Of a DNA stretch of 64,000 bases, positions 261 through 42,698 are shown one piece after another. The translations under genes and the position numbers were made by a program. The stretch is from Utricularia gibba (taxonomy: Eukaryota; Streptophyta; Magnoliopsida; Lamiales; Lentibulariaceae), in NCBI GenBank assembly GCA_002189035.1, contig NEEC01000023.1, forward strand, positions 186,001 to 250,000, given 5' to 3'. The notes under the pieces were generated by a model. It was not told where the DNA came from. It saw nothing but the letters and a program-made list of their open reading frames with translations, and searched no databases. Within the stretch, counting starts at the first letter, position 1. The number at the start of each line of letters is the position of its first letter.

Positions 261-740
261 TGCTAAATTTAGGTATTCATTTCTTCTTAACCTCATTCTC
301 TCCTCCCATTTGTGATCGATGTGAATTTAACTAAATCAAGGGATAGTCGATTTAGGTAAATAAGGATTTTTTTATTTCAATTCTATTCTTAATCTAGTGT
401 AAATTTAAATGTAGATCTATCAGAAACCATACACAACTAAATAGTGAAGTGAATGACACCCTTGAAGATGATATGAAAACAAGGATTGGTGAACAACACT
501 TTTGATCCCTTGCATTTTAGATATTGAAAAAGTCAACTCATGCGGGCCCATGTGTAGATAGCCCCCTGGTCCCCACCTTATGTGATTTATTTGTTTTTTT
601 ATCCCTAAAAGATAATTTATTTTATTAAAAAATTCATATTAAGCAAGGAGCTATTATTTATATTCAATAAATGTTGAGAATAAGGGAATGTACGGTGACG
701 GAATTGTCCTTCTGACTTTTCTCAGCATCCATACCCCGGC
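261..740. other. AT-rich intergenic / upstream region
   Basis: No coding structure is visible. The last 100 bases form the proximal promoter of the DOMON gene that starts at 806. Confidence 0.6.
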
Positions 741-750
741 TCTATAAAAT
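741..750 (+). promoter_or_regulatory. TATA box of the AIR12-like gene
   Basis: TCTATAAAAT lies about 60 bases upstream of the ATG at 806 and is followed by a C-rich stretch suited to a transcription start near 770-780. Confidence 0.65.
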
Positions 751-805
751 ACACGTCACTTGTGGCATTTTCTCACCGTGCATTGCTTGAGTCCTCAACG
801 AAGCT

Positions 806-1741
806 ATGGAGATTTCCGGTCGATCGGCAGCCCACGTCCTTCTCATCTCCGCTGTCGTGTTGCTAGCATCTTCGGCGTCCGCAGACACTTGCGGATCCGA
901 TCAATATGGCCCCATTTTTGAAAATTGCCAAGATCTAGCCACGCTTGGAGCAACTCTCCACTGGACTTACAGGGGGGCCCCTAATCCAACACTTTCAGTC
1001 GCATTCACGGCGGCGCCTCCGCAGCCCGGAGGATGGGTTGCTTGGGGTTTGAACCCTAAGGTGGCTAAGATGTTCGGAACCCAGGCCCTGCTTGCCTTCA
1101 CCCAGGGTACAGGATCCTTGGTGGTGAATACCTACAATCTCTCTTCGAATAGCCCAGATTTGACTTCCCCAACGGCTATCGATTATGCCGTATTGAACAG
1201 GTCGGCGGTAATTTCTGGTAGCCGAATCACGATTCTCGCTGCCATGTCTTTGCCGGCGCCGATTGCGACGATCAATCATGTGTGGCAGGTTGGGCCAGTC
1301 GTCAACGGCGTTCCGCGGCCACATGATTTTTTGCCGGAGAATAAAGAGTCTGTTGGTCAGCTGAATCTGGGGTCAACTCCGGTCACACCTTCTCCGTCAC
1401 CGTCTCCAACGACACCTCCGCTTTCTTCTCCTTCTCCTTCTCCGTCCCCGATTATTCCTCCCCCGTCATCTTCTCCTTCTCCTTCCCCGTCCCGATTACT
1501 CCTCCCCCGTCGTCTTCTCCTTCTCCCTCGCCTTCTCCTTCTCATTCTCATTCTCCTTCTCCATCTCCTATTCCTCCGCCATCGTCCCCGCTGACACCTC
1601 CGCCATCATCCCCGCCGACTCCTCCACCGTCACCCCACGTACGGCTCCTCCCCACCGCCGCCCAGCGGCGCTACTGTGATGTTGGCGACATCGTTGTGGG
1701 TGTGCGCCGTTGCATGGGGCGTGTTTCTATGTGGATTTTAG
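806..1741 (+). CDS. AIR12-like DOMON domain protein, GPI-anchored (two compensating frameshifts)
   Basis: Secreted plant DOMON protein of the auxin-induced-in-root-cultures 12 type. AIR12 is a b-type haem protein held on the outer face of the plasma membrane by a GPI anchor and linked to ascorbate/redox electron transfer. Seen: signal peptide at residues 1-27 ending ASSASA; a single DOMON domain at about 45-170 (LHWTYRG, WVAWGLNP, VWQVGPV); then a Pro/Ser-rich linker. The uninterrupted frame runs only to 1594 and turns into Arg/Leu junk after about 1492. One missing C at 1490-1493 and one extra C in the run 1633-1636 would restore a Pro/Ser linker followed by a hydrophobic tail (VMLATSLWVCAVAWGVFLC), a good GPI signal, ending at TAG 1739-1741. 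The repaired length would be 311 residues. A tandem repeat inside the linker supports the missing C. No intron. A poly(A)-like AATAAA lies near 1875. Confidence 0.8.
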
Positions 1742-3288
1742 TTACTTACTTCTATTTACGTGTTCGTGTTGTTGTGTATCTTTTTACGTTTCTTTTATCT
1801 GTTTTTAACTGCAGTAATTTTTTGTACGCGTGAGTCACCTGTACTTGTTTTTTGACTTTGCAATTTTATAATGGAAAATAAAAATATTCTTTCACTAGCA
1901 TTCATTATTTCCGTTGCACCTAAAAAACAATAATAATATCGTTTTGCTTCTGGTTTTTAATTAGACCATACTTTATTCAAATACATGTAAACTTGACTTA
2001 ATATAAAGAAGGCCATGCCCACTAAGGGTGGAAGAAACATGTTAAATCAAACAATATCATATAAGTAGAATTGAGATAAGTTTTATTTATATTTTCTTTC
2101 ATTTTTTTTATCAAAATATTCAACTTCAACGCACACCCAACTCTACTATTAGAGCAAAATGGACATGAGTTGTGGGGCCCACAATAATCTTTTTCACTCA
2201 CACACATCCTTTTACTTTTTAATTATAAAGTATTCTATTTTTCCAAAATTCATTTTTTTTAATTTTAAAAACCATAAATTTACTGTGTTATATTATTACT
2301 TTGATTATTTGGTTAGGATGAGCTCATACCCTATGTTAAAGTACATATAAGTGTATATTATATATGTTGTGCATGTCTCCACGCTAGTAACACATTTACT
2401 TGTCGAGGCAACACGACTTGGTCACAAAGATGATGACAATATTTACCAATAGACATGAATATTTTGAAAAACATGTTGTTTTAAATAATGATCTTGTAAT
2501 TATTGAACTATGCTAATTCTTATGTTGGTTTGTAGCAGAATGGTGGAAATATTTTACTATAAGTGCACCAAAACCTAAGAAATTTGAAATGAAAATTCTA
2601 GGCTAATGCAGCTCTTATTCAGGTTGTGGATGAAATTAGATCATATGTAATCATATTTATAAAGGATTTATATTTTCGCATTCTAAGTTCCATATTTGAA
2701 TTTTCATATGTAGTCGTATTAATAATCATATAACATGTGATCCAATAGATGTCGAGTTACTTATAAAAGTAGATAGTTTAATTACCGAGAATTCAAATTG
2801 TCCATTTCTTGACTATGAAGAATGTGAATGTATGCTGCATAGAAATTCAGAATACTTGTATATATAAATGGAGTTGGTGAAATGAAAAAAGGTAAATTGT
2901 ATATATTCAATGCATGTATTTTAAACAAATATTAATAAATATATTTTCATGTATGCATTTGAAATTTTGCATTGCATTTGAATGCAATGGGATATGTGAT
3001 GATGAAGTTTCTTAATGTTATTATATCAAATGTTTAGGGACATGTTTTTTGTTTTCTAGTTTTTGAATATTTTGGATGAATATAAAGATATTAAATCATG
3101 ATTCATTAAATTATGATAAATATAATTAAAATGCATTAAATCCACTTCAATCTATTTTTTAAAAAATTAATTCAAAATCATGATTAAACATTAGAACGAG
3201 TTTGCGGATATATCAAGGGTAATATCGGCATTTCAGTGCCCCTAGGGCCCTCGGCCCACTCTGAGTTGGGACGGAACACGAAACCAAG
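1742..3288. other. AT-rich intergenic region
   Basis: About 1.5 kb of very AT-rich sequence. Only short open frames without family features are present; I see no gene, RNA or clear element. Confidence 0.6.
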
Positions 3289-20190: not shown

Positions 20191-21035
20191 TGAGAGTTCC
20201 ATTAATTTCAAAATTACATTCTTAGAAAAGAATTTTTTATTTTTTTTGATAATTCAGCCAAAAAGTTGAAATAAAATAAGAGTTCACTCCATAACATAAA
20301 ATCCAATGCATGTCAGTATCCACTCTCTCCTTATATCATATTATATATTTTTATACTTGTAATTAATATATATTGTTTTAACGACTAATCGTTTCATCAT
20401 TTAGTGTCTGATTAGATGTCCAAGAAAAATGCAACAAATTTGCTAAATATGTATAATCCAATGATCCAATGGTTGAAATTAAGCCTCATTTGGTAAAGTT
20501 TCAAGAAAAAAAAATTCAAATAAATGCTATTTTTGGAGTAGTTACATTTTATAAGCATTCCAAAAATTACCTAAACAAGTAGAAAGATGCTTCAAAAGAA
20601 TTGAAACATTCCAAATTTTCCACTTTTTGAACACAAAAAAACATTTTTTAGAAAAAAAAAATATCAAATCATTTATTATTATTATTGGGGGGGAAAAAAA
20701 GACATTCCAACACAATACTAGTTATTAATATAAAAATCAAATAAATGGGAACATCAATATTTCATCTCTGGTTTTAATTGCTTTTATGAAGGGAAAGAAT
20801 ATCAAAGTTGGCTTGAAAATCCAACAAAATCATTCCCAAGAGTTAGTTTTTTCCCCACCCCAGTCCCTAGCTTCATCCCTAATCCACGTTTAGAAGCTAA
20901 AGTGCGCCCATTCCGGTTGATGTTTTTCCCACTCTATCAGTGTAGAGTCAGAACTACATTCTTCACTGCATCTTCCTCAGCCTTCTTGCTTCAGTTTTGC
21001 CTGAAAAGGGATCGAGATACAGCGTCAGAATTGCG
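20191..21035. other. AT-rich intergenic region and GT29 leader
   Basis: AT-rich spacer without a gene; about 20850-21035 is probably the leader of the glycosyltransferase. An alternative open frame from 20902 has no family features. Confidence 0.5.
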
Positions 21036-22088
21036 ATGGAACTCGGACATGCAGCAGCTACGATGCCCCGTGTCCAATACCTTCTCCTGCTGCTTCTTGT
21101 TCTGCTGGCAGCAGTCCTGGCCTTCCAGTTTGATCTCCTCCATCGCTGCTATGAGGCGCCAAGATCCGTGGACGGAGTGGTTTTACGTTACGCGGCGGTG
21201 GATCTCGACGAGCCCCGGCTGAGGGGAGAAATCGCTGCGCTGCTCAGGAAGGAGGAGTTCAACAGGGAGTTTAGTGTGAAGTGGAAGCCTTCTGCGGAGC
21301 TGGTGATGAGGTTTCGGAGGCATTTGAGTGATTGGGTGGAGAACAGGAGGTTCGATCCGCATGTGATGCTGGAGACGACGGAGATGTTGTTTCATGGACG
21401 GGACGGGAAATCCCGATTCCGGAGCTGCGCCGTGGTGGGAAACAGCGGGATCCTCTTGGACCAGGATCACGGCGCCTTCATCGACGCACACGAGATCGTC
21501 ATACGTCTGAACTACGCGCCGACGTGGGGGTTCGAGCGGCGCGTGGGGACGAAGACCAGCATCTCCTTCGTCAACAGCAACGTCCACCGCTCCTGCTGCG
21601 GGCTCCGATCCCTCCCGTTTTGCAATCCCTACAACCCGAACACCCTGACCGTCATGTACATCTGCCAGCCCATCCACTTCTTCGACTACCTCCGGTGCAA
21701 CTCGTCGGAGTATCCGGTGATCATCACCGACCCCAGATTCGACACGCTCTGCGCTCAACTCGTGAAGTACTATTCCTTGAAGCGGTTCGTGGAGAGTACA
21801 GGGAAGGATGTGAGCGAGTGGCCGGAGGCGCATGGCGGCAGGTGGTTTCACTACTCGTCGGGGATGCAGGCGGTGATGCTGGCAGTCGGGATTTGTGAGA
21901 AGGTGAGCGTTTTGGGGTTTGGGAAGGGGGGGAATGCGAAGCACCATTATCACGATGGTCAGAAGTCCGAGCTTTCACTTCATGACTTCGAAGCTGAGTA
22001 TGAGCTGTACCAAGATTTGAAGACGAAGCCATCGGAAATACCTTTCATTTCCGATAAGTTTCAGTTCCCTCTGTTCGATATCTATTAG
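21036..22088 (+). CDS. GT29 sialyltransferase-like protein (Golgi, GALT29A/SIA family)
   Basis: Intronless gene for a type II Golgi membrane protein of 350 residues. Plants lack typical sialic acid; characterised plant GT29 proteins act on arabinogalactan or pectic side chains, so galactosyltransferase-like activity is more likely than sialylation. Seen: short N-terminus, signal anchor at residues 15-31 (LLLLLLVLLAAVLAF), sialylmotif L at about 131-159 (CAVVGNSG, HEIVIRLN), a Cys-rich segment at 186-196, sialylmotif S at about 268-296 (WFHYSSGMQAVMLA, VSVLGFG) and the VS-type His in HHYHD at 303-307. The start is the first ATG in frame, at 21036; the frame extends to 20997 only through a TTG. 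The stem is short for the family. The local GC content is much higher than its surroundings, as expected for an intronless coding block. Which Arabidopsis member it matches best is unresolved. Confidence 0.85.
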   Translation: MELGHAAATMPRVQYLLLLLLVLLAAVLAFQFDLLHRCYEAPRSVDGVVLRYAAVDLDEPRLRGEIAALLRKEEFNREFSVKWKPSAELVMRFRRHLSDWVENRRFDPHVMLETTEMLFHGRDGKSRFRSCAVVGNSGILLDQDHGAFIDAHEIVIRLNYAPTWGFERRVGTKTSISFVNSNVHRSCCGLRSLPFCNPYNPNTLTVMYICQPIHFFDYLRCNSSEYPVIITDPRFDTLCAQLVKYYSLKRFVESTGKDVSEWPEAHGGRWFHYSSGMQAVMLAVGICEKVSVLGFGKGGNAKHHYHDGQKSELSLHDFEAEYELYQDLKTKPSEIPFISDKFQFPLFDIY

Positions 22089-30059: not shown

Positions 30060-30710
30060 ATTTGTTTTCTGAATTATGCTCCTCACAGTACGCATTCAAG
30101 ATCCCTGAGAAGATGCCTGTTTGCATCTTGGCCGCCACTGACTTCCAGCAGAGCTCTTTACATGCAGCATCATTCATGTCGCCGGCTAAATCATCCTGCG
30201 CCTGCCGAGCTCTTGGTCTAGAGGCAAAGAAGCTCCTCTCAGTTCGAGAAAAAAAAGTGCTGTGATGCTGGTTACGAAAAAATTGAACTTGAAAATCCGA
30301 CTTCTTCGGCGGAGACAGAAAATTCGTTGGCCTTCCGTCTCCTCCGCCTCCCCGGCGGATGCATCCGACACATCGGCGCCGGTCATCTCCCCGGTCGGCA
30401 TCAAAGCCGCCTTCGACGGCGGAAGAACCCGATCACTCAGAGCGCGACATGCAAATTTCGGGCCGTTTCATAGAAACAGACTTTTATATTTTTAAAAAAT
30501 AATTATCATTTGATATTAAAATTGCAATCTTGGAGAGTTGTTTATTTTGAATTATCCTTAGAAAACAATCAATTTTAATTAATTCATCGACAAATAACAT
30601 TAAATGATTTTCATAAGGTCACACGCATCATAGTCTCCCTATTTTTTCATTATTACTATTATTATTATTTTCCAGAGATGCGGTTGAGCCTCAAGGCGGT
30701 GGCTCGCCCC
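30060..30710. other. Intergenic region with a GC-rich block of unknown nature
   Basis: 3' flank of the NYN gene. At 30290-30470 a GC-rich stretch has an open frame on the minus strand (30186-30401, about 72 residues, beginning MPTGEMTGADVSD) with no family I recognise. About 30500-30680 is AT-rich and is the 3' flank of the CLE gene on the minus strand. Confidence 0.4.
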
Positions 30711-31090
30711 TCAGTTGTGATCGGGGTTCGGTCCGCCCGGAACCAGCCGGAGCTCCGACGACCAGTCTCTCCCCTTCTCTGCACGGTAACCCCCCTCCGC
30801 TGCAATCCTCTTTGCCTCCAACAATATCTGTGCAAAAAATCAGACAAAGAGAAAAACAACGGTACGTGTTTTCATGCACAAGGTACTACCTGGCTACGCA
30901 GAACCCCTAGCTCCTCCACATTCCTGCTGCACTCTGCAATGGACAAACCGATCGTCGTTATACAGAAGATCATCGGACGGTTTTCACGTTAGACGGACTT
31001 ACCGACGACGGTGGTGGTGGCGGCGAATACGAGCACGACCAAGACAGCAATCAGACAGACGGCAACAGCCTTAGAAGAACCCGCAGCCAT
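30711..31090 (-). CDS. CLE peptide precursor, divergent CLV3-type paralogue
   Basis: Secreted signalling prepropeptide of the CLAVATA3/ESR-related family. Three exons: 31090-31003 (88 nt), 30933-30890 (44 nt), 30827-30711 (117 nt). Introns are only 69 and 62 nt, both GT-AG, phases 1 and 0. The product has 82 residues: signal peptide (MAAGSSKAVAVCLIAVLVVL...), a short variable domain (LLEAKRIAAEGG), then at 30714-30749 the dodecapeptide RLVPGGPNPDHN followed at once by the stop. R1, P4, G6, P7, P9, H11 and N12 match the CLE consensus. Position 10 is Asp, where most family members have Leu, Ile or a basic residue. Exon 1 and 2 lengths and intron phases equal those of the CLE gene 0.8 kb upstream, so the two are tandem duplicates. 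A TATA box lies about 60 bases before the ATG. Receptor likely a CLV1-type LRR kinase; not shown. Confidence 0.85.
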
Positions 31091-31147
31091 TCTCATTGAG
31101 ATTCCTTCCCCGATGGCGGTGGAGGTGAAATGAAATGCGGCTGGGGA

Positions 31148-31156
31148 TATTTATAG
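31148..31156 (-). promoter_or_regulatory. TATA box of the divergent CLE gene
   Basis: The minus strand reads CTATAAATA, about 60 bases upstream of the ATG at 31090. Confidence 0.65.
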
Positions 31157-31886
31157 ATCGATCTGATAAATGGAAGGTATATACTGTGCATTTGCATTTC
31201 ACTTGTCGTGATTTGTGTATTTCCCCATAAATGGGAATGAATATTTGGAATATTAATTGATTTGATTCTCTAATTAATTGCTTTCTATTTACTCGAAGAT
31301 ATCACACCAAACAGCCATCTTCTTTCCCACTTACTGAAAATTAAAAATTTTAATTTTAATTTAGTATTTCTCAATTTCATAATTCTTTTAATTTTTAAAT
31401 AATTACGAAAGAAACAAGGAAATAAAATGAATTTAACTTTTTCAATTTAAATAAATAAAATAAAATATAATTAATTTTTTAGGTAATATTTAGTTATTGA
31501 CATTAGAAATAATATTGATTGATTTAAAAAAATAAGAAATAATAAATTCATATATATGAAGTTTAAAAAAACTTTTCTTTCAAACTTTTTATAAACTAAC
31601 AACTAAATATTCTATAGTTTATAATATTAAATTTAAATCTGTATGTTCAACCTCAGATCAATCAAACACATACAATTGCACTGGGATTCATGAGTTTTTA
31701 GCAGTGGACGAGTCTCTTATGGCGTTAGCTTTAGTTCTGGGTGCGTGGTAGACTAAGTTAGAAAACAAGCTTTCTACATTGCACTACTTCTATCAAAACT
31801 ACAACCAACATGCTATACTCGAGTTTTCCGATGGAGCTTCCCAAAAAGAGAACTACTGAGGTTGAAGATGCAGAACAATAGAACCA
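31157..31886. other. AT-rich spacer between the two CLE genes
   Basis: Promoter region of the downstream CLE gene and 3' flank of the CLV3-like gene. No other coding structure is visible. Confidence 0.55.
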
Positions 31887-32361
31887 TTATGGAACTTGTG
31901 GCCTCTGAGGATCCTGGCCAGTATGGTGCAACGGGTCAGGCCCTGCGGGAACCTTTCTCAGCTTCAAAGTCTCTGCTATCTGTTTCTTCATCCCTCCAGC
32001 CTGACTGTTCTCCATCGCCACCTTCCTCGCTTCCAGGAGCAACTGAAAGGCTCACCACTTAAAGTTAGTTATACATCCATGTAGAAAAGTAAATGGGATC
32101 AGTTCACATGCATACCTCCCCGCGCAGAAATTGTAACCTGTCCAAACTCCTACTGCACCCTGTGAAAATAGCATATAATCACCTTTTCAGTACACAACAA
32201 ATGCTTGCAGCTATTTATTGTTAGGGAAATAGATGTTTTTTTCGTATATTGATGATTGCATATAGCAGCTAACCAGCAACATCTTTGAGGGAGAAGAAGC
32301 AGACAAGCATCAGCAAGGAGGAAAGAGCAGCTCTTGAAGTGGAACCCCTATTTCTTGCCAT
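31887..32361 (-). CDS. CLV3: CLAVATA3-like CLE peptide precursor
   Basis: Candidate orthologue of CLV3, the shoot-meristem peptide that limits stem-cell number through CLV1-type receptors and WUSCHEL. Three exons: 32361-32274 (88 nt), 32159-32116 (44 nt), 32042-31887 (156 nt), all GT-AG with introns of phase 1 and 0, giving 95 residues; Arabidopsis CLV3 has 96 and also two introns. Signal peptide about 1-29 (LSSLLMLVCFFSLKDVAG). Exon 3 starts LLLEARKVAMENSQ and carries the dodecapeptide RKVPAGPDPLHH at 31923-31958, followed by an 11-residue tail TGQDPQRPQVP, another CLV3-type trait since most CLE proteins end close to the motif. P4 and P7 are in place for hydroxylation. The CLE call is certain from the motif; orthology to CLV3 rather than CLE40 is inferred from exon structure, tail and neighbours. 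Confidence 0.88.
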
Positions 32362-32427: not shown

Positions 32428-32436
32428 TATATATAA
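32428..32436 (-). promoter_or_regulatory. TATA box of the CLV3-like gene
   Basis: The minus strand reads TTATATATA about 70 bases upstream of the ATG at 32361. Confidence 0.6.
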
Positions 32437-34083
32437 TGGGAGGAAGCAAAAGACAGGGGAGAAGAAATGATTGCATGAAGCAGCAATTTTGGAGTAAGAT
32501 TACGGCTATGAAATGACTGTGTAGTATGTGCAAGTAAAGTTTCTTTTTTTACCAAAAAAGAGGAAAGGAGTAAACCTTAATGATCATCCTCCTATGGGAT
32601 TCTCTTGGCTGTTGTGCTTTTTTGACGGCGCCGCATAGGCTTGTCACATGACATGGATGACGTCGTGGGGTTTCTGAACGTTTCCTCTGTCGTGTTTTGA
32701 TTTTGGTTGCTCTGAGTTTCGAGGCGCAACTCGAGATTGATGCGATGGCTGTAAGGATATGCACTGGGAAACTGTCATGTCATGGGGATTCTATGTTTGG
32801 TGCTAGCACGTCTCAATACTTGCATGGGTTTCTCTGATTTTTCCCCAAAATCCCTTCTGCTCTTCCATGCTGTCTTGGCTACAAAAGGGAAAAATCCAGA
32901 GAATTAGTGTGACATGAACAGTGATATGAATGTGTGTTTTCAAGTGAAGGCAGCATTTTAGGCGTCAGAAGTTTGGGAATCTCTAATGAAATGGATTGTC
33001 TCTAAGGATGTGGCTTTCCAATATCATCAGCCTTTCAGATGGATATCAATCACACAGCAGAGACAACAGCCTCCTGCTGTTGTTCTGTTCTGCAGGGGCA
33101 GCAGCCTTCTGGATCTTGTCATGTTGGACACGTTCACAGAATCGAGTTTGAACCCACTTACAGGATGAAGAGAACAGCAATGCAGGGACATGATCTCGGC
33201 GTGTTGCTCTGGCTGCTGCAATGGCTTGAAGGGGAGAAACCCCCGCAGTCTGTGCACAGGATGACAGAGCCTGGTCTCGGCAACAACTTCTCACGATCCT
33301 CCGGGATCCGCTAGAGTATGCAGGAGAGTGAACACATTCCTCTCATTATTTTGTCAGCAGCTGCTTACTGGATAAACACAATAACAAAAGAAGACATATA
33401 AAGGATGCTATACAGTTACTCTACAGTGTCATTCTTGTGTTCATGCTTAAGCGTGTCCCTTATCTGTGTCCCGGCTTCCAAAGCAAGTGGAGAACAAGGA
33501 TCCAAAATCTACAGATGTGAAATCAGGCGATTCAAATGCTATATTTTTTTTATTTTAGAAAAAAATGAGACAGATTTAATCCATTGGGAGCCTGTGATCT
33601 GCCATCCAGCACTGATGGACAAGCAAGCAGTGTGAAATTTACACAGAACCTGTGATCTTCATTTGGTATATTTGAGTACTGTAGCTTTACAATTCTGGGA
33701 TACCTTAGACAGAATTTTACAATTCGCATATCTGGTATTTGCATAGAGCAAGCCACACACAGATCTCAGATTGTAAGCAACTGTGTTTGCATGTGTGAAT
33801 AGCTTCACCAGCCCCTTGGTTCTGATGTTGGTGCTAGAGCTTGAAATGAACCAGTTGTAGCGGCAGCAAGTAGCTGTACGCCGACTATCTACCAAATGAA
33901 AAGGACTCTATTTAACACATGAGACAATCATGATAATCAGAAAGCTAAATTTCATGCCTTGTCAACTAGAAACACAACATTATCACATGCAATATAGAAC
34001 TGCATTCCACGGTGCACAGAGGAAAGACCAATAAAAGAAAAAGGGGTCACCTTCTCTATATACATATTTATTCATAACGAGTG
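32437..34083. other. Upstream region of the CLV3-like gene and 3' flank of GT14
   Basis: No coding gene is supported. The stretch 32560-33330 is less AT-rich than other spacers and would be the place to look for CLV3 control elements. About 33650-34083 is probably the 3' untranslated region of the GT14 gene on the minus strand. Confidence 0.45.
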
Positions 34084-37452: not shown

Positions 37453-38144
37453 CTTGCCTTCATCAACTCTACTCTAGTCAAGAACCCTACTGTTGTACTC
37501 AAATACACTATTGTGGACGTGAATCGATTTAAATACATTTAATATTTACTTATATTTTTTAATCGAATTGATTTTAATTTACGGTAAATATATTTCAAAA
37601 ATACTAAAAAATAATTATTTTAATTTAATCATGGGTTAGAGTTAGAGCCTAGAGGTAAACCATGGATATCTTATTAAGCGGCAGTTCATTAACAAATCAC
37701 CAATGTTTTAATTTATAAAATACATCATAACAAAATTAGAAACCCTAAACTTCAAATTGTAAAACCAATATCCCGAATTCGAGATCAAAACCTAAACCCT
37801 AATCTTATTTTACGAGACAATTCAATTCTTTATAATTAGAACTAATCTAATTATTTAAATTAGATTAGTTTCAATTGACAAATCCCTTATATCTTATATA
37901 TTGAATAAAATGATTATCAAAACTATAATATAAAGCATTATTTAAGAAATTATCAACTATTAGATCATTTAATTAAAAAAATAATTTACATTAAATGAAA
38001 TGATTTCTTATAATTAAAGCTGATTTAATTATTATATTTTTACTGATAAAAAATCATTATATTTGTAATGAAATCAAATCGAACACGTGTACGGTGTACA
38101 TACTTTTAGCTGGCAAATCCAGGTGAGAGAGATCCCCTCAAATG
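37453..38144. other. AT-rich 5' part of MADS repeat unit A
   Basis: Spacer; from about 37720 it is homologous to the regions upstream of the second and third MADS copies. Confidence 0.6.
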
Positions 38145-38153
38145 CTATATATT
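38145..38153 (+). promoter_or_regulatory. TATA box of MADS copy A
   Basis: CTATATATT, 96 bases before the ATG; the same element and distance occur in copies B and C. Confidence 0.7.
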
Positions 38154-38241
38154 GACCGGAGCGGACCTCCTCCCTCACAAACCTCATCGATCCTTTTCTT
38201 GTTTTCCCTCCATTATTCCTCTTTTGAACCTTCCGTCGAGG

Positions 38242-38715
38242 ATGGGGCGCGGGAAACTCCACCTGAAACCCATCGCCGACCTGAAAGCGCGTAGAAACGC
38301 TTTCAAGAAGAAGAAGACGTCGTTGGAGAAGTCGGCGGGAGAGCTGTCTGTCCTCTGCGGGGACGCCGTCGCGATGTCCATCGAGACGGAGGATGGCCCG
38401 TGGACCTGGTCCAGCGGGCCAGGGGCGCTGGAGCATTTGGCGGCTGAGGAGGCCTCCAATGGCGCCTTCAAGACATACACATTGGATGATTTCGTTGATC
38501 GCGGCGCGGAGGAGATGAGCGACAGCGACAATACAGAATTCCAGTCCATGTCCACAGGGGACTTATGGCGGTTGTCCGATGCGCTGAACATGCAGGTGGA
38601 CGCCGCGATGGAAAGGACCAATGTGTTAGGAATGATGACTCTGCTATATTCACCGGTTCGAGAGATCCCGGCTCTGACTCCGGGAGTGGACCCGGAGCAG
38701 TCGTTCTACTGCTAG
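38242..38715 (+). CDS. Type I MADS-box transcription factor, copy A
   Basis: Intronless gene of 157 residues. The MADS DNA-binding domain occupies about 1-55: MGRGKLHLKPIADLKARRNA, FKKKKTSLEKSAGELSVLCG, then the beta-strand region VAMSIETEDG. The KKKK run and the lack of a K-box and introns fit type I (Mbeta/Mgamma-like, AGL80-type) rather than MIKC proteins. These usually act in female gametophyte and endosperm. The frame is open upstream to 38152, but that begins at a TTG inside the TATA region, so the ATG at 38242 is the start. Compared with B and C, copy A has an extra TN after MER and a different C-terminus (LLYSPVREIPALTPGVDPEQ). All three end SFYC. Confidence 0.82.
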   Translation: MGRGKLHLKPIADLKARRNAFKKKKTSLEKSAGELSVLCGDAVAMSIETEDGPWTWSSGPGALEHLAAEEASNGAFKTYTLDDFVDRGAEEMSDSDNTEFQSMSTGDLWRLSDALNMQVDAAMERTNVLGMMTLLYSPVREIPALTPGVDPEQSFYC

Positions 38716-40154
38716 AACCCCTGGAATGTTCTGCAGTGCAGGATCCTTTTGTTCAACAACATTCATCGTCTCCATTATGAAAGATTCTTTAAATTCAGTG
38801 TGACATATGATTGAATTCTAAACCCTAAATCGAAACCCTAGTCCCCAGATGTCCGGATGGGATTCATCTTTGATTGCTTTGAGAGGTCCGGTCCCTCAAC
38901 CATGATGATACTCTTTGTCTTCCATCCAAATGCTCATGTTCTGTGATACCCTATCCAAATTCTCGTCTCAGGAGGCACCTGGGGATTTTTGGCCGTGCCT
39001 GGAATGTTCCTAGGTTTTGTCTTGGTAGTCTACGCAGTGTCCTAATGTTCCTCTCTTGTCATTATTCGGATACTCACCATCGAAACTATCTAGGCGCATA
39101 CCCTATCAGCCATCTGAGCTTCCACATTTACAGTTGTCCTCCCCCTTCTTGCTGCCCAGATTCTTTCTCCTCTGCTCAGATCTTTTACGCCCAAGTGCTC
39201 GGCTACAGAGTGTCTCCTCCCCCAGCTTTATACTCCTGTATTTTATTCTTGTCAAGTGCTTTCCATTCGGGTTTTGCCATGATGACAATCCTTGCACCAC
39301 ATTTCTTGCCCGCAACGAGATCTCTTCTCGGGTACCTTCCACTCGAATCATATTTTGAAGGAGTTTTTTTTCTACCCAAGTGCCATTTTGAAAGCAGTAA
39401 CTTCCTAGCTACATACTCCCCTCATCTTCTCATCAAGGAAATAGCTTCCCAATCAACTTTTTCCCCTGTATTTGTGATCAAATTGTTCTTCACTTGGATG
39501 TGAACTCTTCTTGGCACATTCCCTCTTAGAGTTGTAATCGTTTCGAACTAGAACCGCAGTTTAGTTTCCAGTTCCGGTTTCTTAATAGGCACATTCCCTC
39601 TCTCGCTTCTCTTTTTGGACATTGTCTACTCGAGAGCTGGCTAAACCCTGGATTTTAAAATATATTACAGAACGGTATTTATTTATTAAATACCCTGCGT
39701 TTTAATGTTTTTTGCATAATGTACTATGTTAAGCTTTCATTTGCAAACTACTTCATAAGAAATCAAACCTAAATTCGATACCTCAAATCTTAAAACCAAA
39801 TTGTATATCAAAAAACCTGACCCCTAAACTCTAAATATTATTTTATTAGACAATTCAATTCTCTATAACTAAAATTAATCTAACTCTTGTATTTCTAAAA
39901 GCACACAAATTAAAAAGTATAAATGGTTATTTGAAGTTTGAATCGAAAAATTCCCTTAAATCGTATATATTTAATAAAATAATTATCAAAACTAAACTAT
40001 AAAACCTTATTTAAGAAACTAACAACTATTAGATCATTTAATTAAAAAATAAGTCACATTAAATCAAATGATTTCTAATAATGATTGAATTTTATATTTC
40101 TTATTTATTTATTACACAGCTGGCAAATCCAGGTGAGAGAGATCCCCTCTAATG
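38716..40154. other. 3' flank of MADS copy A and 5' part of unit B
   Basis: An open frame at 38943-39503 (186 codons) is not supported: the homologous stretch in unit B (40950-41520) is broken by stops and indels. From about 39700 the sequence is the AT-rich upstream part of unit B. Confidence 0.6.
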
Positions 40155-40163
40155 TTATATATT
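40155..40163 (+). promoter_or_regulatory. TATA box of MADS copy B
   Basis: TTATATATT, 96 bases before the ATG at 40252. Confidence 0.7.
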
Positions 40164-40251
40164 GACCGGAGCGGACCTCCGCCCTCACAAACCTCATCGA
40201 TCATTTTCTTGTTTTCCCTCCATTATTCCTCTTTTGAACCTTCCGTCGGGG

Positions 40252-40719
40252 ATGGGGCGCGGGAAACTCCACCTGAAACCTATCGCCGACCTGAAAGCAC
40301 GTAGAAACGCTTTCAAGAAGAAGAAGACGTCGTTGGAGAAGTCGGCGGGAGAGCTGTCCGTCCTCTGCGGGGACGCCGTCGCGATGTCCATTGAGACGGA
40401 AGACGGCCCGTGGACCTGGTCCAGCGGGCCAGGGGCGCTGGAGCATTTGGCGGCTGAGGAGGCCTCCAATGGCGCCTTCAAGACCTACACATTGGATGAT
40501 TTCGTTGATCGCGGCGCGGAGGAGATGAGCGACAGCGACAATACAGAATTCCAGTCCATGTCCACAGGGGACTTATGGCGGTTGTCCGACGCGCTGAGCA
40601 TGCAGGTGGACGCCGCGATGGAAAGGATGTTAGGAATGATGACTGCGGTATTCTCACCGGTTCCAGAGAACCCGGTTCTGACACCGGGAGTGGACCCGGC
40701 CCAGTCGTTCTACTGCTAG
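40252..40719 (+). CDS. Type I MADS-box transcription factor, copy B
   Basis: Intronless, 155 residues, nearly identical to copy A over the first 125 residues. It differs in the last part (RMLGMMTAVFSPVPENPV, then LTPGVDPAQ), which it shares with copy C. The upstream segment lacks the CGAACACGTGTACGGTGTAC stretch present before copies A and C, and with it a CACGTG-type box about 150 bases before the ATG. B may therefore be expressed differently. No lesion in the frame; MADS domain complete. Confidence 0.82.
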   Translation: MGRGKLHLKPIADLKARRNAFKKKKTSLEKSAGELSVLCGDAVAMSIETEDGPWTWSSGPGALEHLAAEEASNGAFKTYTLDDFVDRGAEEMSDSDNTEFQSMSTGDLWRLSDALSMQVDAAMERMLGMMTAVFSPVPENPVLTPGVDPAQSFYC

Positions 40720-42139
40720 AACCCCTGGAATGCTCTGCAGTGCAGGATCCTTTTGTTCAACAACATTCATCGTCTCCATTATGAAAGATTCTTTAAATTC
40801 AGTGTGACATATGATTGAATTCTAAACCCTAAATCGAAACCCTAGTCCCCAGATGTCCGGATGGGATTCATCTTTGATTGCTTTGAGAGGTCCGGTCCCT
40901 CAACCATGATGATAGTCTCTCTATGTGTTCCATCCAAATGCTCATGTTCTGTTATGCCCTATCCACATTCTCGTCTCAGGAGGCACCTGGGAATCTACGG
41001 CCGTGCCTGAAGTGTTCCTAGGTTTTCTCTTGGCACTCTACTCAGTGCCCAATGCTCCTCTCTTGTCATTATTCAGATACTCACCATTGAAACTTTCCAG
41101 GCGCATACCCTATCAGCCATCCGAGATTCCACATTTACAGTTGTGCTAGAGATTATCATCCTTAGCCTCTTCTTGCTCCCTAGATTCTTTCTCCTCTGCT
41201 CAGATCTTTTAAACCCAAGTGCTCGGCTATAGACTGTATCCTCCTCCAGCACTGCTTATACTTTTGTATGTGAGTATTTCTTCCTGCCAAGTGCGTTATA
41301 TTTGGGGTTTTGTCATGATGACGATCCTTGCACAACATTTCTTGCCCGATTATTCATCACAAGGAGATGTCTTCTCGGGCACCTTCGACTCGAGTCTTAT
41401 TCTGAACGAAATATGAAGGAGATGAGTCATTTTAAATGCAATAACTTCCTAGGCACTTACTCCCCTCATCTTCTCATGAAGGAAATAGCTTCCCATTGAA
41501 ATTTTGCCCGTGTATTTGTTATCAAAGTGCTCTTCACCTAGATGAGAATATGCTTGGCGCATTCCCTCTCTCGCTTCTCTTTATGGGCATTGTCTACTCG
41601 AGCCCTAATTAAACCCTGGATTTTAAAGTACCTTACAAAACTGTATTTCTTTATCCAATACCCCTGCTGCGTTTTAAAGTTGCTTGCATAATAGCCTATG
41701 TTAAGCTTTCATTTGCAAACTACTTCATAAAAAATTAATCTAAACCCAATATGTCAAATCTTAAAACCAAATTCGAAATTGAAAAATCTGAGCCCTAAAC
41801 TCTAAATTTTATTTTACGAGACAATTTGAATATTTTTAATTAAAACAAATCAAAACACAAATTAAACAAGTATAAATGGTTGTTTGAAGTTTGAAGTGAC
41901 AAATCCCCTAATTCTTATATATTGAGTGAAATAACTGGCAAAACTAACAACTATTAGATCATTTAATTAAAAAAATAATTCACATTCAATCAAATGATTT
42001 CTTATAATTAAAGCTGATTTAATTATTATATTTCTACTGATAAATAAATCATTATATTTGTAATGAAATCAAATCGAACACGTGTACGGTGTACACACTT
42101 TTAGCTGGCAAATCCAGGGGAGAAAGATCCCCTGAAATG
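40720..42139. other. 3' flank of MADS copy B and 5' part of unit C
   Basis: Homologous to the flank of copy A with many indels; short frames here are not conserved between units and are not called as genes. Confidence 0.6.
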
Positions 42140-42148
42140 TTATATATT
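42140..42148 (+). promoter_or_regulatory. TATA box of MADS copy C
   Basis: TTATATATT, 96 bases before the ATG at 42237. Confidence 0.7.
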
Positions 42149-42236
42149 GACCGGAGCGGACCTCCGCCCTCGCAAACCTCATCGATCATTTTCTTGTTTT
42201 CCCTCCATTATTCCTCTTTTGAACCTTCCGTCGGGG

Positions 42237-42698
42237 ATGGCGCGCGGGAAACTGCACCTGAAACCCATCGCCGACCTGAAAGCGCGTAGAAACGCTTTCA
42301 AGAAGAAGAAGACGTCGCTGGAGAAGTCGGCGGGAGAGCTGGCCGTCCTCTGCGGGGACGCCGTCGCGATGTCCATCGAGACGGAGGACGGCCCGTGGAC
42401 CTGGTCCAGCGGGCCAGGGGCGCTGGAGCATTTGGCGGCTGAGGAGGCCTCCAATGGCGCCTTCAAGACCTACACATTGGATGATTTCGTTGATCGCGGC
42501 GCGGAGGAGATGAGCCACGATACAGAATTCCAGTCCATGAACACAGGGGACTTATGGCGGTTGTCCGACGCCCTGAACATGCAGGTGGACGCCGCGATGG
42601 AAAGGATGTTAGGAATGATGACTGCGGTATTCTCACCGGTTCCAGAGAACCCGGTTCTGACACCGGGAGTGGACCCGGCCCAGTCGTTCTACTGCTAG
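42237..42698 (+). CDS. Type I MADS-box transcription factor, copy C
   Basis: Intronless, 153 residues. It begins MARGKLHLKPI where A and B have MGRGKL. It has ELAVLCG in place of ELSVLCG, and a two-codon deletion where A and B read SDSDNTEF (here SHDTEF). The C-terminus matches copy B. The 5' flank matches copy A, including the CGAACACGTGTACGGTGTAC stretch. The frame is open and the MADS domain complete, so the copy is probably functional. Confidence 0.82.
   Translation: MARGKLHLKPIADLKARRNAFKKKKTSLEKSAGELAVLCGDAVAMSIETEDGPWTWSSGPGALEHLAAEEASNGAFKTYTLDDFVDRGAEEMSHDTEFQSMNTGDLWRLSDALNMQVDAAMERMLGMMTAVFSPVPENPVLTPGVDPAQSFYC

Follow-up and report, generated by a model that had tools for sequence, protein, structure and literature searches.

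An old tandem pair of putative three-exon CLE genes of the CLV3/CLE40 class in Utricularia gibba

Two genes for putative secreted CLE peptides lie side by side on the minus strand of the window, which is the whole 64,000-nucleotide stretch of Utricularia gibba DNA analysed here. Gene B (32361-31887) has exons of 88, 44 and 156 nt and a precursor of 95 aa (MARNRGSTSRAALSSLLMLVCFFSLKDVAGCSRSLDRLQFLRGELLLEARKVAMENSQAGGMKKQIAETLKLRKVPAGPDPLHHTGQDPQRPQVP); gene A (31090-30711), located about 1.2 kb downstream in the same orientation, has exons of 88, 44 and 117 nt and a precursor of 82 aa (MAAGSSKAVAVCLIAVLVVLVFAATTTVVECSRNVEELGVLRSQILLEAKRIAAEGGYRAEKGRDWSSELRLVPGGPNPDHN). All junctions are GT-AG and the intron phases are 1 and 0 in both genes. 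The features are listed below, "C505 copy" referring to a second tandem pair found on another contig of the same genome.

32642..32665, minus strand: distal conserved promoter block of gene B, CGACGTCATCCATGTCATGTGACA, in common with C505 by alignment
32464..32488, minus strand: bipartite promoter element of gene B, AATTGCTGCTTCATGCAATCATTTC, its pattern matched 3 times in 100 Mb
32428..32435, minus strand: TATA box of gene B, with a TATA aligned in the C505 copy
32274..32361, minus strand: gene B exon 1, 88 nt, with start codon and predicted signal peptide; 72% identity with the C505 copy
32116..32159, minus strand: gene B exon 2, 44 nt, GCSRSLDRLQFLRGE; 44 nt in four of five paralogues and 43 nt in C505 gene B
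31887..32042, minus strand: gene B exon 3, 156 nt, with prodomain, dodecapeptide RKVPAGPDPLHH, tail TGQDPQRPQVP and stop; 79% identity with the C505 copy
31137..31157, minus strand: core promoter of gene A with TATA box, TCTATAAATATCCCCAGCCGC, its pattern matched twice in 100 Mb
31003..31090, minus strand: gene A exon 1, 88 nt, with start codon and predicted signal peptide
30890..30933, minus strand: gene A exon 2, 44 nt, ECSRNVEELGVLRSQ; over 53 nt the DNA is 77% identical to exon 2 of C505 gene B
30711..30827, minus strand: gene A exon 3, 117 nt, with prodomain and dodecapeptide RLVPGGPNPDHN, followed directly by the stop, without a tail

The exon lengths, joins, precursor lengths and phases given in the initial annotation were all reproduced, its models being correct to the base. 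With a simple splice-site matrix, whose weights were taken from general knowledge, these models score best among all in-frame three-exon models of both genes. An upstream ATG of gene A at 31096 ties in score, and is disfavoured by a weaker context and by the paralogues, which begin with MA-. Since 1,782 and 1,258 in-frame three-exon models are possible at the two loci, an open GT-AG join alone is weak evidence, and one might argue that a splice puzzle with so many solutions had been solved by chance where there is no gene.

Both precursors have a strongly hydrophobic N-terminal segment (maximal 11-residue hydropathy 3.7 in the precursor of 82 aa and 2.5 in that of 95 aa), so that on hydropathy a signal peptide is predicted for each, and their lengths lie within the roughly 60-120 aa of the CLE family. 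The 12-residue CLE motif is present in both at or near the C-terminus, the Asp at position 10 of gene A being atypical. No Pfam model matched either precursor and Rfam gave no match within the window.

The IUPAC pattern GPxPxH[HN] gave 22 matches in 100 Mb of this genome compared to 2 for the reversed control, whereas a query in which the motifs were joined to 24 residues gave no match; as these 100 Mb may not be the complete genome, the gene counts are lower bounds. The exact dodecapeptides of genes A and B were absent from the literature searched. Among the matches is the second tandem pair on C505, with a B-type gene (L022, RTVPAGPDPLHH) and an A-type gene (L021, REVPGGPNPLHN) lying 1.7 kb apart in the same order and orientation as in the window. 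A further match is a solitary B-type gene on C1 (L001, RRIPGGPDPLHH). The places and phases of the introns are common to all five of these loci (window A and B, C505 A and B, C1 B) and exon 2 has 44 nt in all except C505 B, while exon 1 varies from 73 to 91 nt. The equal 88-nt first exons, which had been taken as evidence for a duplication, are thus a coincidence, given that the paralogues have 73, 82 and 91 nt, whereas the intron phases and the 44-nt length of exon 2, cited for the same purpose, are kept among the paralogues (one exon 2 being 43 nt). The independent copies also back the earlier claims of CLE identity, three-exon structure and tandem duplication. At twelve of the other CLE loci one open frame suffices to reach the motif from a Met, with signal-peptide-like starts. 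On another contig, two intronless CLE genes of the types RLVPGGPNPLHN and RRVYRGPDPIHN are arranged divergently 4.8 kb apart (G000:C255, 2671023, minus strand, and 2675821, plus strand).

Alignment of gene B with its C505 copy showed 72-79% identity in the exons and about 45% in the introns over their length, with partial conservation of the promoter. Exon 2 of C505 B (G000:C505:2714277-2714319, minus strand) lacks one G of a G run compared to the window, and with its 43 nt the frame is lost if no alternative acceptor comes into play. This may reflect an assembly error in the G run, a real lesion, or a frameshift that is bypassed by an alternative acceptor; the acceptor GTGAG|GAAG inside exon 3 of C505 B would keep the ligand in frame.

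A TATA box ahead of both start codons, as proposed initially, was found to begin 65 nt (gene A) and 74 nt (gene B) before the ATG. Several near-perfect conserved blocks, including the distal block CGACGTCATCCATGTCATGTGACA and GGATGATCATTAA, lie upstream of gene B (32464-32665, minus strand). The pattern AATKGCTGCTN{4,7}AATCATTYC has exactly 3 matches in 100 Mb, each of which (3/3) is upstream of a B-type gene, and the A-type core promoter pattern TCTATAAATATCCCNRNSCGC has exactly 2, at both A-type genes. These patterns were written after viewing the sequences, so that the defining copies match by construction; what is informative is the absence of any further match in 100 Mb, and the presence of the short B element at the distant C1 copy too. 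We do not assign any of these elements to a known transcription factor.

Five homologous loci with the same phases and, apart from the single 43-nt case, the same length of exon 2, the conservation of exons over introns and the specificity of the promoter elements refute the idea of a chance join without a gene, to which we give practically no credence. Likewise, chance does not explain two motifs 1.2 kb apart in one orientation, each accompanied by a signal-peptide exon and by conserved homologues.

The two genes are adjacent, have the same orientation and intron positions in common, and are homologous along the precursor, as tandem duplicates are. The window (contig C411) and C505 are collinear for a GT29 glycosyltransferase, a zinc-finger gene, V-ATPase subunit E, gene A and gene B. 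The zinc-finger gene, which we take to be NYN-like from general knowledge of its sequence, has just a weak C2H2 match in Pfam. Flanking genes mostly show a Ks of 0.4-0.9 between C411 and C505, and gene B shows a Ka of 0.22 and a Ks of 0.48, which fits a genome or large segmental duplication. Reciprocal loss followed: the NYN-like gene is intact in the window and a remnant on C505, while V-ATPase subunit E is apparently complete on C505 (L026, about 550-1760, minus strand) and reduced to fragments in the window (30097-30374, minus strand, downstream of gene A). Both CLE genes were retained in both blocks despite this loss of neighbours. The sialyltransferase-like GT29 gene is single in the window (20946-22088, plus strand) and a tandem pair on C505 (about 2699380-2703358). 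Elsewhere in the window (38110-42698, plus strand), three M-type MADS-box open frames that closely resemble each other stand in tandem about 2 kb apart. The RuBisCO small-subunit genes of the genome are interrupted near codon 45-47, where a second intron is located, a feature that on general grounds speaks against a grass.

In a tree without outgroup the two A-type genes separate from the three B-type genes with 99-100% bootstrap, and the longest internal branch runs between them, A and B being strongly diverged (Ks about 1 or more). The separation of the clades indicates that the tandem duplication preceded the C411/C505 block duplication. C1 represents an older paralogous block (Ks >1) in which only a GT29 gene and the B-type gene are found, the GT29 relative and the CLE gene being about 30 kb apart; no remnant of gene A was found near this singleton. 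With Ks saturated and the tree unrooted, the long A/B branch suggests that the tandem duplication may predate the C1 block as well. Side-by-side two-intron genes that predate the C411/C505 duplication and are separated by the longest internal branch could also be read as the ancient split between CLV3/FON2 and CLE40/FCP1, begun as a tandem duplication. This we consider very improbable, since CLE40 and FCP1 have HH at the end of the ligand and gene A has HN, and since in an unrooted comparison gene A may simply evolve fast.

Among CLE genes analysed, two introns have been described only for CLV3, CLE40, rice FON2 and FCP1 and barley HvCLE402 (PMC5519606; also PMC10436580), single introns being present in a few CLE genes of pennycress (PMC10436580). 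The link that the initial annotation made between two introns and this class therefore agrees with published surveys, and genes A and B both have two introns and three exons. The ligand of gene B contains GPDPLHH, in accordance with the GPDPxHH/GSDPLHH form of the class, so that gene B fits the CLV3/CLE40/FON2/FCP1 class in architecture, ligand and tail. Gene A, with GPNPDHN in the window and GPNPLHN on C505, departs from this form and fits in architecture only. Its ligand differs from that of gene B at 5 of 12 positions, including Asn8 and Asn12, and is identical to that of the intronless L009 and L016 (RLVPGGPNPLHN) except for residue 10. Residue 8 is known to matter in CLV3 paralogues, as base edits there cause severe fasciation in Solanaceae (PMC12661658). 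The assignment of both genes to a meristem-regulating class overreaches: for gene B it agrees with the core VPAGPDPLHH, the C-terminal tail and the B-specific promoter element, whereas a meristem role for gene A is not supported, given Asn8, Asp10 and Asn12 in its ligand, the absence of a tail and an unrelated promoter.

Most CLEs listed from the genome have a hydrophobic residue at position 10 and Asp is unique to the window copy of gene A, which together with a Ka of 0.44 between the window and C505 A genes might indicate that gene B is functional and the window gene A, with its Asp10 and missing tail, is decaying, its function being kept only on C505 (REVPGGPNPLHN). We regard such decay as possible yet rather unlikely, because the frame, splice junctions, predicted signal peptide and core promoter of gene A are intact and Ka/Ks between the two A genes is 0.34, although Ks is near saturation. 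Somewhat more doubtful is a largely redundant pair, in which A and B would both be active CLV3-like signals serving as dosage backup in meristems, comparable to Solanum prinophyllum. Partly redundant tandem CLV3 duplicates are indeed known (PMC11964936) and both genes are retained in both blocks; the differences between the ligands, the strong A-B divergence and the fact that the two genes have no promoter elements in common speak against it.

Taken together, we think it likely that genes A and B are secreted-peptide genes of the CLV3/CLE40 two-intron class derived from an old tandem duplication, with B as a CLV3/FON2-like gene and A as its diverged partner. Both very probably encode peptide hormones of the CLV3 class, the class that tunes stem-cell number. 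The 43-nt exon 2 of C505 B, the Asp10 and missing tail of gene A and the lack of a Pfam match are points against this interpretation. Expression, in vivo splicing, processing, receptors and function of both genes are matters that we infer from the DNA. Each gene would have its own minus-strand transcript, in which splicing joins the three exons and from which a preproprotein is translated. After removal of the signal peptide the dodecapeptide would be excised, probably with hydroxylation and arabinosylation, and once secreted it would bind to LRR receptor kinases. The gene B peptide most likely acts as a CLV3/FON2-like meristem signal, which would repress WUS-type stem-cell factors via CLV1/BAM receptors. 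Gene A has most likely diverged in receptor preference, expression or strength: in view of its HN-type-like ligand and different promoter, it more likely signals elsewhere or via other CLV1-family receptors, or is weakened in the window copy. A bolder and, in our opinion, improbable extension is an ancient two-gene CLV3 module, consisting of a CLV3-like signal and an adjacent partner of the same architecture that has a promoter of its own and an HN-type ligand switched to another receptor; the two would have stayed together through genome duplication while neighbours lost a copy. If this were true, the linked genes could send opposing or complementary signals to the meristem.

Genes with exons of 40-150 bp slip past ordinary annotation. 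A pan-angiosperm survey published in 2025 annotated about 60,000 CLE genes and revealed unannotated ones in more than 40% of the well-annotated species tested (PMC12661658); genes A and B may already be included in this catalogue. The 44-nt exon 2, the phases 1 and 0 and the promoter element form a compact marker for such genes, exon 2 having been compared here among five paralogues. In the preferred interpretation, the pair is a case of an old local CLV3-class duplication in which both copies outlived a block duplication and one of them came to differ in ligand and promoter, and with two peptides and two promoters the divergence of CLV3 paralogues becomes testable.

The nearest known system is CLV3 of Arabidopsis and FON2-FON4 of rice (CLE group 3 of Oelkers et al. 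2008, group 1D of Goad et al. 2017), with which the pair shares three exons, two introns and a predicted signal peptide, and gene B in addition a GPDPxHH-type dodecapeptide near the C-terminus with a short tail. Gene A differs from it by GPNPDHN without a tail, and the Utricularia genes form a tandem pair. CLE40 of Arabidopsis, FCP1 of rice and HvCLE402 of barley have the same two-intron architecture, but Thr at position 5 (REVPTGPDPIHH in FCP1 and HvCLE402, RQVPTGSDPLHH in CLE40), where gene A has Gly and gene B Ala. Gene A resembles the intronless HN-type genes L009 and L016 in its ligand, residue 10 apart; unlike these single-exon genes it retains the CLV3-class introns, and therefore the likeness is probably convergent. 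Tandem CLV3 copies as such are already known from spiny Solanum species, where some are intact and partly redundant and others decayed (PMC11964936). CLV3a/CLV3b of Solanum prinophyllum and S. aethiopicum are likewise local tandem duplicates of the CLV3 class, sometimes with one decayed copy (PMC11964936). However, the intact copies of S. prinophyllum are recent and nearly identical (PMC11964936), whereas the present pair predates a block or genome duplication and is set apart by this age and by a ligand and promoter that differ between its partners.
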